A DNA stretch of 64,000 nucleotides from Burkholderiales bacterium LSUCC0115 (GTDB lineage: Bacteria; Pseudomonadota; Gammaproteobacteria; Burkholderiales; Burkholderiaceae_A), in contig WJBW01000002.1 of assembly GCA_009646425.1 (NCBI GenBank), positions 186,001 to 250,000 on the forward strand, read 5' to 3'. The position numbers were made by a program, and so were the translations under genes. Below, in pieces: positions 50,931 through 63,920 of this stretch. The notes under the pieces were generated by a model, which was given only the letters and a program-made list of their open reading frames with translations, did no database searches and had not been told where the DNA came from. How positions within the stretch are numbered: position 1 is the first letter of the stretch; every line of letters begins with the position of its first letter.

Positions 50931-59113
<8,183 letters not shown>

Positions 59114-59152
59114 GGTCCTCGGCCTCCCCGTCCACAATTTCTGATGAATTCC

Positions 59153-59181
59153 ACTCTAGGAGTCCGATCGAAAATTGTCAA
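59153..59181 (-). promoter_or_regulatory. bchF sigma-70 promoter
   Basis: On the minus strand: -35 TTGACA (59181-59176), 17-nt spacer, -10 TAGAGT (59158-59153). The -35 is perfect and the spacing ideal. A PpsR box overlaps the -35, giving direct promoter occlusion by the repressor. The predicted leader to the bchF ATG is about 33 nt. Confidence 0.8.
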
Positions 59182-59193
59182 TAAATTCTGACA
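59176..59193. promoter_or_regulatory. PpsR/CrtJ box 1 (bchF promoter)
   Basis: TGTCAATAAATTCTGACA, a perfect TGT-N12-ACA palindrome, overlapping the -35 of bchF. PpsR/CrtJ represses bch and crt promoters through exactly this motif; ppsR is encoded 1 kb away. Confidence 0.85.
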
Positions 59194-59203
59194 TCTAGTT
59201 CAA

Positions 59204-59232
59204 TTGACAAACTGCTATGTCCTAGACAAAAT
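59204..59232 (+). promoter_or_regulatory. aerR-ppsR promoter (proposed)
   Basis: On the + strand: TTGACA (59204-59209), 17-nt spacer, CAAAAT (59227-59232, 4/6 to TATAAT). It lies back to back with the bchF promoter, between the two PpsR boxes. Confidence 0.6.
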
Positions 59233-59236
59233 AAAT

Positions 59237-59254
59237 TGTCGTCGGTCGTGGACA
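59237..59254. promoter_or_regulatory. PpsR/CrtJ box 2 (aerR start region)
   Basis: TGTCGTCGGTCGTGGACA, a second perfect TGT-N12-ACA. Its centre is 61 nt from box 1. It lies just downstream of the proposed aerR -10, so bound PpsR would block its own operon and could bind cooperatively with box 1. Confidence 0.8.
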
Positions 59255-59274
59255 TCGCCCAAAAAGAGAGGAAG

Positions 59275-60261
59275 ATGGAAGAACTGAATTCGCGTGCGAG
59301 CTCACCGATTTGGGCAGGACCCCCTGCCAAGATCCGGTCGGGCTGGGCACAAAGGGGGCGAATAATGACCAGACCAAGTGTGGGCCAGAGCCCACCGCAG
59401 CAGCAGCAGGGCAATGTGGCGCATGACCATGACATCCAAGACGTCGTGGCGCACGAGCTCATTCCAAGACTCCTCATGCTCGATCTTGGTGCTCCAGAGG
59501 CCCACCCATTCGGGCGACTGGGCAGTCACATCCCGAGCCGCGAGAGCCTCGAGCACACCAATGCCCTGGCCCACCAATTGGCTCTACTGACCCTCGAGGC
59601 CAGACTGCCGGACTGCGAGCAATACCTGCAAAAACTCAGAGACGGTGGCCTTAGGCTGGAATCGATTTTTCTAGAGGTCCTTCAGCCAGCAGCGCGGATC
59701 CTGGGATCTCGCTGGAAAGAGGACAGCTGCAGCTTCGTTGATGTCACCACGGGGCTCTGGCAGCTTCAACAACTCTTTCACCGCTTGCTGCACGACTTCC
59801 AGACCGAACCACGTCAGCCAGGCAGTCTAATGGCCACACCGGATGGCCAGCCAAGGCCGAGCGCTTTTTTCTGCACACCAGCAGGCGCCCAGCATCGATT
59901 GGGCGTCCAAATGATCAGCGCTTTTTTCTGTCGAGCTGGCTGGCAGACCGGCTTGTCATTCGGCGAAACGACTGGACACATCTGCGATGAAGCCAAACGC
60001 TACGCCCCTGACCTACTAGGGGTTTCCTTGAGTTGTGAACAGGAAATGATCGAGGCGCCAGCCTTTATACTCGCGCTCAAACAAGCTACAACCAAAACGA
60101 ATCCCATCATCATGATTGGCGGCCCAGGCCCCTCCATCTTCCCCGAACTCGCCGCAGCCTGCCAGGCAGACCTGGTCTCGGGTGACGCACCGGCGGCCCT
60201 GGCAGCAGCCCAGATCCACATTCAGCGCAGACGCGATCAGGCCGGTGCCCAAATCAAGTAA
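59275..60261 (+). CDS. aerR: AerR/PpaA cobalamin-binding regulator of photosynthesis genes
   Basis: A 328-residue B12-binding antirepressor that works with PpsR/CrtJ. A helical domain (about 55-175) is followed by a Rossmann-like cobalamin domain; the conserved GAQHRLGVQMISAFFCRAGW near 200-219 contains the His expected to ligate cobalt in the light-exposed adduct, and IIMIGGPGP is near 280. The classical DxHxxG motif is absent, as in AerR. Possible starts: ATG 59275, ATG 59365 with a better ribosome site (AAGGGGG, 6 nt spacing), and TTG 59236. Two start sites recall the long and short AerR forms described in Rhodobacter capsulatus. It overlaps ppsR by 17 nt. Confidence 0.9.
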   Translation: MEELNSRASSPIWAGPPAKIRSGWAQRGRIMTRPSVGQSPPQQQQGNVAHDHDIQDVVAHELIPRLLMLDLGAPEAHPFGRLGSHIPSRESLEHTNALAHQLALLTLEARLPDCEQYLQKLRDGGLRLESIFLEVLQPAARILGSRWKEDSCSFVDVTTGLWQLQQLFHRLLHDFQTEPRQPGSLMATPDGQPRPSAFFCTPAGAQHRLGVQMISAFFCRAGWQTGLSFGETTGHICDEAKRYAPDLLGVSLSCEQEMIEAPAFILALKQATTKTNPIIMIGGPGPSIFPELAAACQADLVSGDAPAALAAAQIHIQRRRDQAGAQIK

Positions 60262-61639
60262 CAAGGCACGTCAGGCCCAGGCGCAGCAAGCTCCCTCTGA
60301 TCTCTTCAAAGCGGCTGCAGATCTCTACCTAGACATCGATTCATCTGGCGTCATCCGCCAGGCCAGTTCTGGCCTCCAGGATCTACCCGCGATGGGACAA
60401 GACTGGATCGGACGCAACTGGCTGGACACCGTGACCAGCGAGAGTCGCGTCAAGATTCAGGAAATGCTGACCGAGGCCAAGCAGACGGGACGTCCAACAC
60501 GCTGGCGCCATATCAACCACGTTCTCAAAGACCAGACTGAGTTTCCGGTCCTCTACTCCCTGGTCCAGAGCCCAACCGACGATCGTCTAACCGCCATTGG
60601 TCGAGACCTGCGCGCCATGGCCTCCTTGCAATCCAGGCTGCTTCAAGCCCAACAGATGCTCGAGCAGGACTATCTGAGAATGCGGTCGATTGAGAACCAA
60701 TATCGGACCCTGTTCGATCTCATCCGCGATCCAATCCTGATGATCGAAGGTCGGCACGGCCGTATCCTGGAATCCAACAAAGCCAGTCAGACGTTCTTTG
60801 GCCTGTCTGGCGGGCAACTTCTGGACAAGAAACTGGAGACCTTGGTGAGCGCGCCGTCTCTGGGCGCCTTTAATCAAGTCCTGCGCGAAGTGGATGGGTC
60901 CGGACGATCTGGACAAGCCAGCCTTCGATTTGGACAGCACAAACAAAAGTCCACCGTTCATGTGGCACACCTTCGGCACGAAAACGAAACGGCGTTCCTG
61001 CTGCGCATCGACACCCATTCACAGCCCAATGGACAGGGTGTAGACCACCATCTGCTCCAAGAGACGCTTTCTCTCATGACCGACGGCTTGGTGATCACCG
61101 ACCGCAGGGGCATCATTCTGCATGCCAACCCGGCCTTTGCCCAGATCATCCACTTGCCTCACCATGGGCAGGTGCTGGGTGAGCCCATCAGCCGTTGGCT
61201 TGGGCGAGCCAACACCGACTTCCAGGTCCTGATCAACGGCCTACAGCAGGGCGGCGTGGTGAGACTCTTTTCCACTCAACTGGTGTCGGACGCGGGTGCC
61301 GCCATCCCAGCGGAGATATCGGGTATTAGCCTGCCGCAGGACAAAGAGCCTCTCTTTGCCTTCACCATCCGAGACACCGGACGACGTCTTCAACCCCAAC
61401 CAGCCCAGGCCAGTGGACTGGGACGATCTCACGAAGATCTCTCTGACCTGGTGGGTCGCATGCCCCTCAAGGAAATCGTCGGCGAGACGGTCGACCTGAT
61501 CGAAAAACTATGCATTGAGGCCGCGCTCAAGCTCACCAAGAACAACCGGGCATCTGCCGCGGACATGCTGGGCCTCTCCAGGCAGAGCCTGTACGTCAAG
61601 ATGCGTCGCTTCGGCCTGGATCGCGGCGACCTTCAGTAA
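60245..61639 (+). CDS. ppsR: PpsR/CrtJ photosynthesis repressor
   Basis: A 464-residue DNA-binding repressor of bch, crt and puc genes under oxygen. An N-terminal PAS-like domain (about 18-120), a Gln/Leu-rich helix (SLQSRLLQAQQMLEQDYLRM), PAS1 (about 155-260), PAS2 (about 275-385) and a Fis-type helix-turn-helix (NNRASAADMLGLSRQSLYVKMRRFGL) follow in order. The only cysteine is C423, just before the helix-turn-helix, equivalent to the redox-active C424/C420 of Rhodobacter proteins; the second cysteine used there for a disulfide is absent. GTG at 60245 within the end of aerR is the best start. Confidence 0.92.
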   Translation: MPKSSNKARQAQAQQAPSDLFKAAADLYLDIDSSGVIRQASSGLQDLPAMGQDWIGRNWLDTVTSESRVKIQEMLTEAKQTGRPTRWRHINHVLKDQTEFPVLYSLVQSPTDDRLTAIGRDLRAMASLQSRLLQAQQMLEQDYLRMRSIENQYRTLFDLIRDPILMIEGRHGRILESNKASQTFFGLSGGQLLDKKLETLVSAPSLGAFNQVLREVDGSGRSGQASLRFGQHKQKSTVHVAHLRHENETAFLLRIDTHSQPNGQGVDHHLLQETLSLMTDGLVITDRRGIILHANPAFAQIIHLPHHGQVLGEPISRWLGRANTDFQVLINGLQQGGVVRLFSTQLVSDAGAAIPAEISGISLPQDKEPLFAFTIRDTGRRLQPQPAQASGLGRSHEDLSDLVGRMPLKEIVGETVDLIEKLCIEAALKLTKNNRASAADMLGLSRQSLYVKMRRFGLDRGDLQ

Positions 61640-61657
61640 TTGCCCAAGGGCCAGCAG

Positions 61658-62353
61658 ATGAGTGCCACGGCCATCGCCATCCTGGTTCGCTGGCAGCCTC
61701 AACACCTGTTGTGGGGACTCATGCGCTTGCCCCTGGCGGTCATCAGGCCCCCGCATCGCATCGGGTCCGACCATGGGTTGCTGTTTCAGAAATTTCTCGG
61801 CAGCGGCGACGAGGGCGGCTTTCAGCTCAAGCCGAGTCTGGACCATCAAGCCTGGTTCGGAGTCTTCCAATCCAGATCACAAGCCGATGCGTTTATCAGC
61901 CACAGCCCCATGGTTCAGCATTATCAAGAACGCAGCCGAGACTGCCTGACGCTCACCTTACAGGCCTATCAATCGCGTGGGTCTTGGTCCGGGTTCTCCG
62001 TCGAGGCCACAGCGGACAGGCCGGACTCTGGACCGGTGGTCTCACTCACACGGGCCAGTATTCGACCTGGCAAAGCGGCGGACTTCTGGCGTCAATCACC
62101 AGCCGCTGAGACCGACTTAGAACGAGCAGAGGGTTGCGAGCTGGCCATGGGGCTTGGAGAAATGCCGGTCTTTCGACAGGCCACCCTCAGCCTGTGGCAG
62201 CAAGAGTCATCCCTTGTTCAGTATGCGCAGACCGGCGCCCATCAACGCGCCATTGCGGCCGCCTACGGCCGGCATTTCTTCTCTGAATCCATGTTCACGC
62301 GTTTTCGTTTGCTGCAAGCACGGGGTCAATGGAAGGGGCGATCCTATGACTAG
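61658..62353 (+). CDS. crtA: Spheroidene monooxygenase CrtA
   Basis: A 231-residue haem-dependent, O2-using enzyme that inserts the 2-keto group, turning spheroidene into spheroidenone (and hydroxyspheroidene likewise). Family stretches: GLLFQKFLGSGDEGGFQLKPSLDHQAWFGVFQ-like sequence near 43-75, FSVEATADRPDSGPVVSLTRASIRPGKA near 113-140, and FRQATLSLWQ. ATG at 61658 has AAGGG 7 nt upstream. It starts 18 nt after the ppsR stop and its stop overlaps the crtD start, so the regulators and carotenoid genes may share transcripts. Confidence 0.93.
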   Translation: MSATAIAILVRWQPQHLLWGLMRLPLAVIRPPHRIGSDHGLLFQKFLGSGDEGGFQLKPSLDHQAWFGVFQSRSQADAFISHSPMVQHYQERSRDCLTLTLQAYQSRGSWSGFSVEATADRPDSGPVVSLTRASIRPGKAADFWRQSPAAETDLERAEGCELAMGLGEMPVFRQATLSLWQQESSLVQYAQTGAHQRAIAAAYGRHFFSESMFTRFRLLQARGQWKGRSYD

Positions 62354-63920
62354 TCACGCACGGTCCCAAAGGGTCGCTGTGATTGGTGGCGGGATCGGCG
62401 GCCTGACGGCAGCCTATGACCTGGCCCAGGCCGGGCATCGGGTAACCCTCTTTGAGCAGCAAGCCGCACCGGGGGGCAAGATTCACCAGGAGCAGGTTCT
62501 GGGCCAGGGCATCGACAGTGGTCCGACGGTCATGACCATGCGTTGGGTCTTTGATGACCTGCTCGCACCATCTGGGCGACAGCTTGAGGACCTGGTTGAT
62601 CTGCAGCCGCTAGACGTTCTGGCCCGTCACCATTGGCCAGATGGCAGCCGACTGGATCTCTACACCGACCTCGAAAAAAGCAGGCAGGCGATCTTGGCGT
62701 TCGCCGGTCAGAGCGAGGCAGCGGCCTTCGGGCACTTCATGCAGCAGGCACAAGCGGTCTATCACCGACTGGAGCCCATCTACATGCGAGGTGAGCGGCC
62801 AAGCTTCCTGGGACTGACGCGCTCATTGGGTCCTGCAGGCCTTGCCATGCTCACGCGACTCGGGCCTCTGCAGAGCCTGGCACAACACCTGGAGCGCCGG
62901 TTCAGGGATCCGCGCCTTCAACAACTCTTTGCCCGGTATGCCACCTACTGCGGTGGATCCCCATGGCAGGCGCCTGCCACCCTCTTGCTCATTGCCTATG
63001 TCGAGCTACGCGGTGTCTGGGCGATGTCAGGCGGGATGCAGGCGCTGGCACAAGCCATGGCCAAGGCCGTTGAAGAGCTGGGTGGCAAGATCCAATATCG
63101 AATGCAGGTCCAACAGATCCTGGAATACAAGCAGCGTGCCTGCGGCCTGCTGGCGGGCCCGCCTGGTGAGACAGCCGAGCGATACGACTTTGATGCAGTG
63201 GTCTTCAATGGAGACATTGGCCTGCTGAAGACCTCCTCGCTACTCCCCCCAGATCGCCGACAGATCCCAAGCCATCAATGCACCCCCAGCTCCCTGTCGG
63301 CGATGACCTGGTCCGGTGTCTTCCGCGCCGAGGGTTTCGGGCTTCAGTACCACAACGTTTTTTTTCAAGATCACTACATGGATGAGTTCACTGCCATCTT
63401 TCGTCATCGCCGGATGCCTGAGCGACCCACAGTCTATGTCTGTGCCCAGGATCGACTGGCCGGTCGCGCCGGGCAGAGTACCGATGACCAGATGCAAGAA
63501 AAAATCTTCATGCTCATCAATGCCCCAGCCTGCGAGGCCAGCCGCAGCGCCTTCCCACCAGAGGAGATCGAGCAATGCCAAGAACGGGTTTTATCTCGCC
63601 TGGCCCAGTCGGGCTTGAAGCTATCGATGCAGGCCCCCATGACCATCAAAACACCTTCGGATTTTGGTCAGCGCTTTCCGGGCTCCAAGGGCGCCCTCTA
63701 TGGCCGAGCACCACACGGCTGGCTGTCAGTCTTTCACAGAGCCTCGAGCCGCGGCCCAATGCCGGGGCTCTACCTGGCCGGGGGGACGGTTCATCCGGGC
63801 GCGGGAGTGCCGATGGCCGCTCTGTCGGGTCGTTTGGCGGCCGCCTGCCTGATGGAAGACCTTGCTTCGACCAGATCGTCCCGTCGGGTGGTTATCTCTG
63901 GTGGTATGTCGATGGCCTAA
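62346..63920 (+). CDS. crtD: 1-hydroxycarotenoid 3,4-desaturase CrtD
   Basis: A 524-residue FAD-dependent desaturase of the CrtI superfamily. The dinucleotide motif VAVIGGGIGGLTAAYDLAQ begins at about residue 10. GIDSGPTVMTMRWVFDDLL, RYATYCGGSPWQAPATLL and the C-terminal LAGGTVHPGAGVPMAALSGRLAA favour CrtD (hydroxyneurosporene/methoxyneurosporene dehydrogenase) over the phytoene desaturase CrtI. The GGAAGGGG ribosome site precedes ATG 62346, which overlaps the end of crtA. Its 3' end overlaps the start of crtC in another frame. A longer frame starting inside crtA is not supported. Confidence 0.92.
   Translation: MTSHARSQRVAVIGGGIGGLTAAYDLAQAGHRVTLFEQQAAPGGKIHQEQVLGQGIDSGPTVMTMRWVFDDLLAPSGRQLEDLVDLQPLDVLARHHWPDGSRLDLYTDLEKSRQAILAFAGQSEAAAFGHFMQQAQAVYHRLEPIYMRGERPSFLGLTRSLGPAGLAMLTRLGPLQSLAQHLERRFRDPRLQQLFARYATYCGGSPWQAPATLLLIAYVELRGVWAMSGGMQALAQAMAKAVEELGGKIQYRMQVQQILEYKQRACGLLAGPPGETAERYDFDAVVFNGDIGLLKTSSLLPPDRRQIPSHQCTPSSLSAMTWSGVFRAEGFGLQYHNVFFQDHYMDEFTAIFRHRRMPERPTVYVCAQDRLAGRAGQSTDDQMQEKIFMLINAPACEASRSAFPPEEIEQCQERVLSRLAQSGLKLSMQAPMTIKTPSDFGQRFPGSKGALYGRAPHGWLSVFHRASSRGPMPGLYLAGGTVHPGAGVPMAALSGRLAAACLMEDLASTRSSRRVVISGGMSMA

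Follow-up and report, generated by a model that had tools for sequence, protein, structure and literature searches.

A candidate 34-bp compact PpsR operator between the divergent bchF and aerR-ppsR promoters of a Burkholderiales bacterium

How might one short stretch of intergenic DNA serve two head-to-head promoters, one reading into pigment genes and the other into the gene for the presumed repressor? We considered this question in a stretch of 64,000 nucleotides (hereafter the window) from a genome of 1.84 Mb (16 contigs, 99.96% complete), in which bchF and the aerR-ppsR genes diverge. From what the window and its relatives contain, we consider it probable that positions 59176-59209 form a compact operator for PpsR, placed between the promoters of bchF and aerR-ppsR. 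Comparisons with published systems draw on parts of the cited papers.

Genes and predicted promoters of the locus

The minus-strand gene bchF (58604-59113) encodes a 2-vinyl bacteriochlorophyllide hydratase (TIGR02020, 179.6 bits; PF07284, 194.3 bits) and is followed on the same strand by bchN; we assumed a transcription unit bchF-bchN-bchB-bchH behind the bchF promoter. On the plus strand, aerR (59275-60261; PF02310, 41.3 bits) encodes a B12-binding co-regulator, and its end overlaps the start of ppsR (60245-61639, plus strand; 60245 vs 60261), which encodes a repressor with PAS domains and a Fis-type HTH. The genome thereby encodes a cognate PpsR, scoring 417.6 bits with TIGR02040 against a cut-off of 275.4 and matching the R. 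sphaeroides PpsR structure PDB 4hh2 with an E of 3.2e-43. Its HTH cysteine, C423, which we take to be the redox cysteine, was invariant in 18 of 18 aligned sequences. The start codons of both plus-strand genes were chosen by eye and are most likely ATG 59275 for aerR, preceded by the ribosome-binding site AGAGAGGA (59265-59272, plus strand, read from the sequence), and GTG 60245 for ppsR. Beyond ppsR, at 61640-63920, come a crtA-like gene that scores under the NCBIfam cut-off and crtD, both on the ppsR strand and possibly part of one operon.

The window AerR combines a B12-binding domain carrying an axial His with a gene position directly before ppsR, as in AerR/PpaA co-regulators. It aligned with R. 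capsulatus AerR 7te2 (E 1.8e-6), including the His of the QHxLG stretch; we read this residue as the probable equivalent of His145, the role of which in AerR is described in PMC9144470, and took a W and an F from the same alignment for the putative counterparts of the cap described there. The CrtJ Q-linker residues (PMC9144470) likewise have same-spaced equivalents in the window PpsR (Q129, L132, Q136, E140, Y143 and R147), as judged by eye from a PpsR family alignment with CrtJ itself outside it.

A promoter scan of 58800-59600 returned exactly two sigma-70-like promoters, back to back, where 0.1 were expected, both with perfect -35 and imperfect -10 hexamers. For bchF, the conserved -35 TTGACA (59181-59176, minus strand) is the left half of the upstream box described below and lies 17 nt from the -10 TAGAGT (59158-59153, minus strand). 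The preliminary description of this DNA had placed a perfect box on a perfect bchF -35, between back-to-back bchF and aerR promoters, and the scan bears it out. For aerR, the proposed -35 TTGACA (59204-59209, plus strand) is followed at spacer 17 by a candidate, weakly conserved -10 CAAAAT (59227-59232, plus strand). Across the gaps compared, the bchF -10 reads TAnnnT at spacer 17 in 62 of 77, and the aerR -10 takes this form at spacer 17 in 4/79 and at spacer 18 in 8/79, a weak peak in a set that includes three gaps (L067-L069) matched out of register with box 1. Within the aerR leader/start region, TCCTAGACAAA at 59220-59230 was kept in 6/10 genus gaps, at a variable distance from the -35.

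Presence and conservation of two perfect boxes

Two TGT-N12-ACA boxes had been claimed in this gap, and both are present without mismatch exactly where they were placed: box 1, TGTCAATAAATTCTGACA (59176-59193), the main putative PpsR operator, and box 2, TGTCGTCGGTCGTGGACA (59237-59254), a lineage-specific site with a G+C-rich centre near the predicted aerR transcription start. Their starts are 61 bp apart, so the claimed spacing is exact, while its equation with about six helical turns is loose (5.8 turns at 10.5 bp per turn). The bare pattern TGT-N12-ACA shows no enrichment in the 64-kb window (8 found vs 11.2 expected), and its counts were dropped from the evidence as uninformative. Both boxes also fit TGTC-N10-GACA, found 32 times genome-wide (1.84 Mb), against 15 occurrences of its reversal. 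A simple reading-frame heuristic places 27 of these 32 sites inside genes; the five outside are box 1, box 2, a site before bchC, one in the crtE-bchO gap and one intergenic site on contig C1. Box 2 was here set as non-coding, the heuristic having given aerR an upstream TTG start. Two properties of PpsR/CrtJ operators are found at this locus: the palindrome TGT-N12-ACA, often as TGTC-N10-GACA, and an overlap with the predicted -35 of a photosynthesis promoter that is itself conserved. An RNA hairpin formed by box 2 in the aerR leader was considered and rejected, its fold being no better than those of shuffles (z 0.15). Elsewhere, L001:1501-1518 holds a near-perfect 18-bp palindrome, TGTCTACA-TT-TGTAGACA, which is probably not a PpsR site; the nearest gene appears to resemble a phage-type integrase.

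Conservation in related gaps, which had been proposed as a check, held for box 1 and failed for box 2. From 27 relative loci fetched we obtained 24 gaps (25 with the window), with start codons picked by hand; L059 and L070 were dropped as cut or broken, and L072, which lacks bchF, as a second ppsR copy. Of the 22 intact gaps of the family, 21 carry a perfect box 1, and in the other it ends in ACG. Box 2 is perfect in place in 1/22, this genome only, and carries one core mismatch in the nearest relative; the perfect pair at 61 bp occurs once among 90 gaps, in the window itself. The second ppsR-like gene at L072 (G053:C31:24803-26089), from one genome of the order, is 27% identical to that of the window and lies about 5 kb from the first.

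The two boxes also differ in likeness to the other PpsR target promoters of the lineage. Our main weight matrix was built from all 53 perfect boxes (37 distinct) before bchC and crtE of other family genomes, and its training held no bchF-aerR site. Scored over all window positions, box 1 ranked 1 (20.6 bits), position 59192 ranked 2 (10.6 bits) and box 2 ranked 17 (5.6 bits). With four hand-chosen training sets, box 1 was at rank 1 in 4/4, 59192 at ranks 2, 2, 2 and 5, and box 2 at ranks 10, 11, 28 and 12. Over the next 19.9 kb, crtE-bchO, bchC and crtI-bchG account for the five best sites; a good PpsR-like site (18.1 bits) lies at L183:3463-3480, in the divergent crtI-bchG gap.

Some relatives do carry second boxes. 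L060 and L061 have one with a single mismatch at 57 bp from box 1 and L053 one such at 43 bp, and perfect boxes lacking the C and G stand at 37 bp in L056 and 34 bp in L069. A second site as such is not unusual in relatives, but none lies at 61 bp. Among 44 family bchC and crtE promoters, 32 hold at least two boxes, counting perfect boxes or those with one mismatch and the C and G kept. The commonest step is 24-26 bp (16 of the 32 multi-box promoters), followed by 13 bp in 10, with others of 7, 32, 43-46, 67 and 90 bp; 61 bp is absent. On recount, pairing at 24-26 bp did not prove to be the rule in the family (16/44, with 13 bp in 10, a single box in 9, none in 3 and other steps in the rest). 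No second full box 24-27 bp from box 1, as in a closely linked tandem, was found in the window; the nearest partner of box 1 is degenerate and 16 bp away, and box 2 is at 61 bp. The bchC promoter of this genome (L183:16326-16393, contig C2) has three PpsR-like boxes at steps of 24 and 26 bp, the gene-proximal one with one mismatch.

A 34-bp element with a shared centre

Box 1 makes up the left side of a longer element of 34 bp, TGTCAA-N8-GACATC-N8-TTGACA (59176-59209), with the general pattern TGTCAA-N8-GACRTC-N8-TTGACA; the left arm of this element is the bchF -35, and the right arm falls on the proposed aerR -35. The sequence reads as TGT-N12-AC(A/G) overlapping (C)GT-N12-ACA, which would make it two overlapping PpsR-like boxes with a common inner half-site. 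The right box, CATC-N10-GACA (59192-59209), starts 16 bp from box 1 and is degenerate; the two centres are 16 bp apart, about 1.5 turns, with 2 bp common to both boxes. The centre GACATC of the window leaves box 1 perfect and the right box as CAT-N12-ACA, whereas in other lineages the right box is often CGTC-N10-GACA or CGTA-N10-GACA. The matrix score at 59192 comes nearly all from the right half. The conserved second piece of the gap is thus the half-site at 59204-59209 on the aerR -35, instead of box 2.

With box 1 as the anchor of an alignment of family gaps, ACTCTA-N17-TGTCAA-N8-GACATC-N8-TTGACA was fixed in sixteen gaps from two genera, one of them showing ACTGTA. At up to 2 mismatches, this 57-bp composite occurs once each in 17 of 26 family genomes, 16 of them without mismatch (reversed control 0), and the carriers are every bchF-bearing genome of the two genera; the place of the bchF -10 reads ACTCTA (plus strand) in 17/17, one as ACTGTA. 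In a third genus 0/8 genomes match the composite, although seven have bchF; there box 1 is kept in 5/6 gaps and the bchF -10 hexamer ACTCTA also in 5/6, with the right arm wholly or mostly lost. At up to 3 mismatches the composite was found in 27 of 399 genomes of the order (control 0).

We then counted the element in 90 bchF-aerR gaps, made up of the 25 from relatives (window included) and 65 named ones. The latter derive from 80 loci, 67 of them in divergent order and 13 in another order or cut, after removal of the duplicates L073 and L075; they were bounded by tblastn borders and hence include some coding sequence. Allowing up to 3 of 18 mismatches, the element is present in 74/90 gaps (57/68 outside the family), as compared to 0.00 to 0.05 in 20 shuffles of each gap, and 16/90 gaps exceed this threshold. 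Five of the 13 left-out loci all have it at 1 to 3 mismatches. The 74 elements comprise 68 distinct sequences and 53 clusters at 29/34 identities, and by record titles their carriers are Alpha-, Beta- and Gammaproteobacteria, among them Rubrivivax (L082), Hydrogenophaga, Methylobacterium, Roseicella, Hyphomicrobium and Ectothiorhodospira lacustris; Novosphingobium has the element at 2 mismatches. Of the Limnohabitans gaps, L108 has it at 2 mismatches and L101 and L139 have the left part only (5 mismatches). Three Chromatiaceae gaps in which no aerR was found, and Thiodictyon, which has none annotated, carry it at 1 or 2 mismatches.

Other layouts exist. All eight Rhodobacterales plasmid gaps lack the 34-bp element (4 to 7 mismatches) and hold perfect boxes that stand clear of each other, two or more per gap, at distances of 95-98 or 140-144 bp, and six Limnohabitans-type gaps have two boxes 21 bp apart. 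The two-box theme exists elsewhere, in other geometry.

The geometry of the element is sharply defined. Spacers of N8/N8 account for the 74 gaps, and the next best combination for 17, with the arm-to-arm distance unchanged. Searched alone at up to 1 mismatch, the arms peak at spacer 6 (55/90, the single box) and spacer 22 (67/90, the 34-bp element), with 5/90 or fewer at the other spacers tried (4-11 and 16-29). Mock centres still passed the mismatch count (CAGRTC 55/90, GTCRAC 44/90, AGCCTR 21/90, three others 0) because the arms carry most of it. As a choice of elements based on the centre could bias both its apparent conservation and the G15/C20 result given below, both were repeated with elements chosen by their arms only. 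Outside the family, 59 elements at up to 4 mismatches gave the consensus TGTCAA, a middle of tTKACGTMa, and TTGACA, with the four central letters kept in 58, 59, 55 and 56 of them. By arms only, 31 of the 68 gaps outside the family have perfect arms, and of these 30 show an ACGT centre and 1 shows ACAT; at up to 1 mismatch, ACGT is found in 46/50. The element, its invariant geometry, its overlap with the predicted -35 hexamers and the gene identities can all be read from sequence, and they suggest that the element is old and probably a PpsR landing site.

Across 200 Burkholderiales genomes, bchF was found in 27 and the arms with ACRT, at up to 1 mismatch, in 29; crossing the two lists by eye, 23 of the 27 bchF-bearing genomes have the element 80-180 bp from the bchF match, and four (G348, G364, G458 and G480) lack it at this threshold. 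The 19 mismatch-free matches in the 200 genomes all lie 80-180 bp from a bchF match, and none of the 27 bchF-bearing genomes searched has a second copy at up to 1 mismatch. Six genomes without bchF hold a one-mismatch match, and the reversed control matches in 7 genomes. A class-wide TIGR02040 search placed 4/274 genomes over the cut-off and hence was not used for counts. The element could mark bchF promoters in unannotated phototroph genomes. In one genome of the same genus as the window (G007, 83% complete), neither a PpsR match nor bchF was found, nor was bchC above the cut-off or crtE at 1e-40; photosynthesis may have been lost there, or the assembly may be incomplete.

A proposed operator, rival readings and known systems

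We propose that PpsR bound to box 1 as a dimer, or as one half of a tetramer, would cover the bchF -35, leaving RNA polymerase unable to open the bchF-bchN-bchB-bchH genes. The same complex would sit directly upstream of the proposed aerR -35, and contact with the right arm, which coincides with that -35, would damp PpsR's own aerR-ppsR operon. One short element would in this way couple pigment synthesis to repressor supply; AerR with B12 may modulate PpsR there, and box 2 would be at most an auxiliary site, in one species or a two-species clade. If transcription starts 7 nt after the -10, box 1 spans -30 to -47 of bchF, and this position on the -35, as for the upper bchC palindrome of R. capsulatus (-30 to -47; PMC5362033), makes occlusion of the bchF -35 the firmest step. 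Closure of aerR through the right box is the weaker one, since that half-box is degenerate and its score mostly that of the right half, which is the -35 hexamer. We infer PpsR binding, the repression of each promoter and the part of AerR from this arrangement. The claim that PpsR closes both promoters is thus supported as to an operator on the bchF -35 and a divergent aerR-ppsR operon, and control of both would follow by analogy with R. sphaeroides and D. shibae (PMC4344238, PMC10890935). AerR as antirepressor, also suggested in the preliminary description, is plausible by homology, but a role of this kind is too simple because the long and short forms of R. capsulatus AerR act oppositely (PMC6199135).

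With a shared centre and a 2-bp overlap, dimers on the two boxes may exclude each other, such that PpsR would choose between closing bchF and closing aerR-ppsR, and the centre would set the choice; we put this extension forward tentatively and consider it rather doubtful. GACGTA is proposed to favour the left box and TACGTC the right, and among 57 elements outside the family these centres occur 16 and 15 times. In the 31 perfect-arm elements, the G that would favour the left box occurs in 11 and the C that would favour the right in 12; 8 elements lack both and 0 combine them. G15 and C20 are anticorrelated in the centre-based set (both 6, left only 23, right only 18, neither 12; p 0.003), with p 0.007 and 0.07 after thinning to 35 and 21 elements, and again in the 50 arms-only elements (both 5, left only 18, right only 16, neither 11; p 0.01). 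As relatedness of the elements is still present in the data, the anticorrelation is only a hint. The family centre GACATC makes the bchF box perfect. If the choice exists, the balance between repressing pigment genes and autoregulating the repressor would be hard-wired at this site.

Three other readings were weighed against the compact operator. PpsR could occupy both perfect boxes, cooperatively or by a loop over 61 bp, with box 2 at the aerR start blocking aerR directly. Both boxes are indeed perfect, relatives have second sites at other distances (57, 43, 37 and 34 bp), one crtE promoter (L270) has two perfect boxes 67 bp apart, and separate perfect boxes are the rule in the Rhodobacterales plasmids (8/8 records); furthermore, CrtJ is described as a tetramer that acts on palindromes near to or far from each other, in the second case probably through a loop (PMC9144470), and gaps of 76 and 240 bp are known at R. 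capsulatus crtI and puc (PMC4452267). The low rank of box 2, its perfect form in only one of the 22 family gaps, its core mismatch in the nearest relative, the uniqueness of the 61-bp pair and the absence of this step from bchC and crtE nevertheless make such an arrangement very unlikely here, and the loop was set aside as the main reading for want of conservation. It is somewhat less improbable, though still doubtful, that box 1 is the sole operator, the right arm being kept only as the -35 of aerR (or ppsR) and the centre being a spacer. The family itself, with box 1 perfect and the right box degenerate, fits this, as does the third genus, which keeps box 1 and ACTCTA without the right arm; yet outside the family the ACGT centre is as conserved as the arms (30/31; 46/50), unlike a spacer, the aerR -10 is weak, and the Chromatiaceae and Thiodictyon gaps retain the element without aerR in the gap.

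That near-invariance could instead mean that a second regulator binds the centre (TKACGTMA), competing or cooperating with PpsR at bchF. PrrA and MppG do act at the R. sphaeroides bchF as well (PMC4263372), and no MppG or PrrA motif was found in the parts of that paper used here. Against a second protein, ACG and CGT half-sites occur within boxes tested with Rubrivivax PpsR (PMC4452267), so that PpsR alone would suffice, and we hold this reading to be unlikely. Taken together, these comparisons favour the compact operator at 59176-59209.

That PpsR controls divergent bchF and aerR/ppaA has been described before, and such a reading of this locus is in itself ordinary. In R. sphaeroides, PpsR motifs for ppaA and bchF were reported with ChIP-seq, and both genes changed without ppsR (PMC4344238, Table 2); we read both motifs as lying under one ChIP-seq peak. 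As in that species, bchF and aerR/ppaA adjoin here with a PpsR motif each, but the R. sphaeroides ppaA/bchFNBHLM region has two separate 18-bp boxes, whereas here the half-boxes are fused within 34 bp (PMC4344238). The bchF-ppaA region of D. shibae likewise has overlapping divergent promoters and a box on the bchF -35, and mutating two boxes of its bchF promoter derepresses bchF; it differs in having four predicted sites, one of them at the bchF -10 and start (PMC10890935). CrtJ peaks occur before bchF (PMC5362033), and Rubrivivax PpsR binds the pucB (TGT-N12-ACG) and crtI (cGT-N12-ACA) promoters (PMC4452267). A 2009 study of Congregibacter counted 15 sites, 12 of them in tandem at 7-8 nt (PMC2654016).

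In the parts of these papers used here, PpsR operators are single boxes, tandems 26-27 bp apart, or pairs with gaps of at least 76 bp. No description of the fused 34-bp form was found in the open-access literature searched; in our data, three classes of Proteobacteria have it at the bchF promoter, and it offers a precise, inexpensive test of how one repressor could be serving two head-to-head promoters and its own gene. Box 1, at -30 to -47 of bchF, matches the position of the upper bchC box (PMC5362033), and the half-site is common to the bchC tandem (PMC5362033), Rubrivivax pucB and crtI (PMC4452267) and the 34-bp element. In known tandems the box centres stand 26-27 bp apart and 8-9 bp separate the boxes (PMC5362033, PMC4452267), whereas in the 34-bp element 2 bp are shared and the centres are 16 bp apart, a spacing one helical turn shorter than the 26 bp at bchC (PMC5362033).
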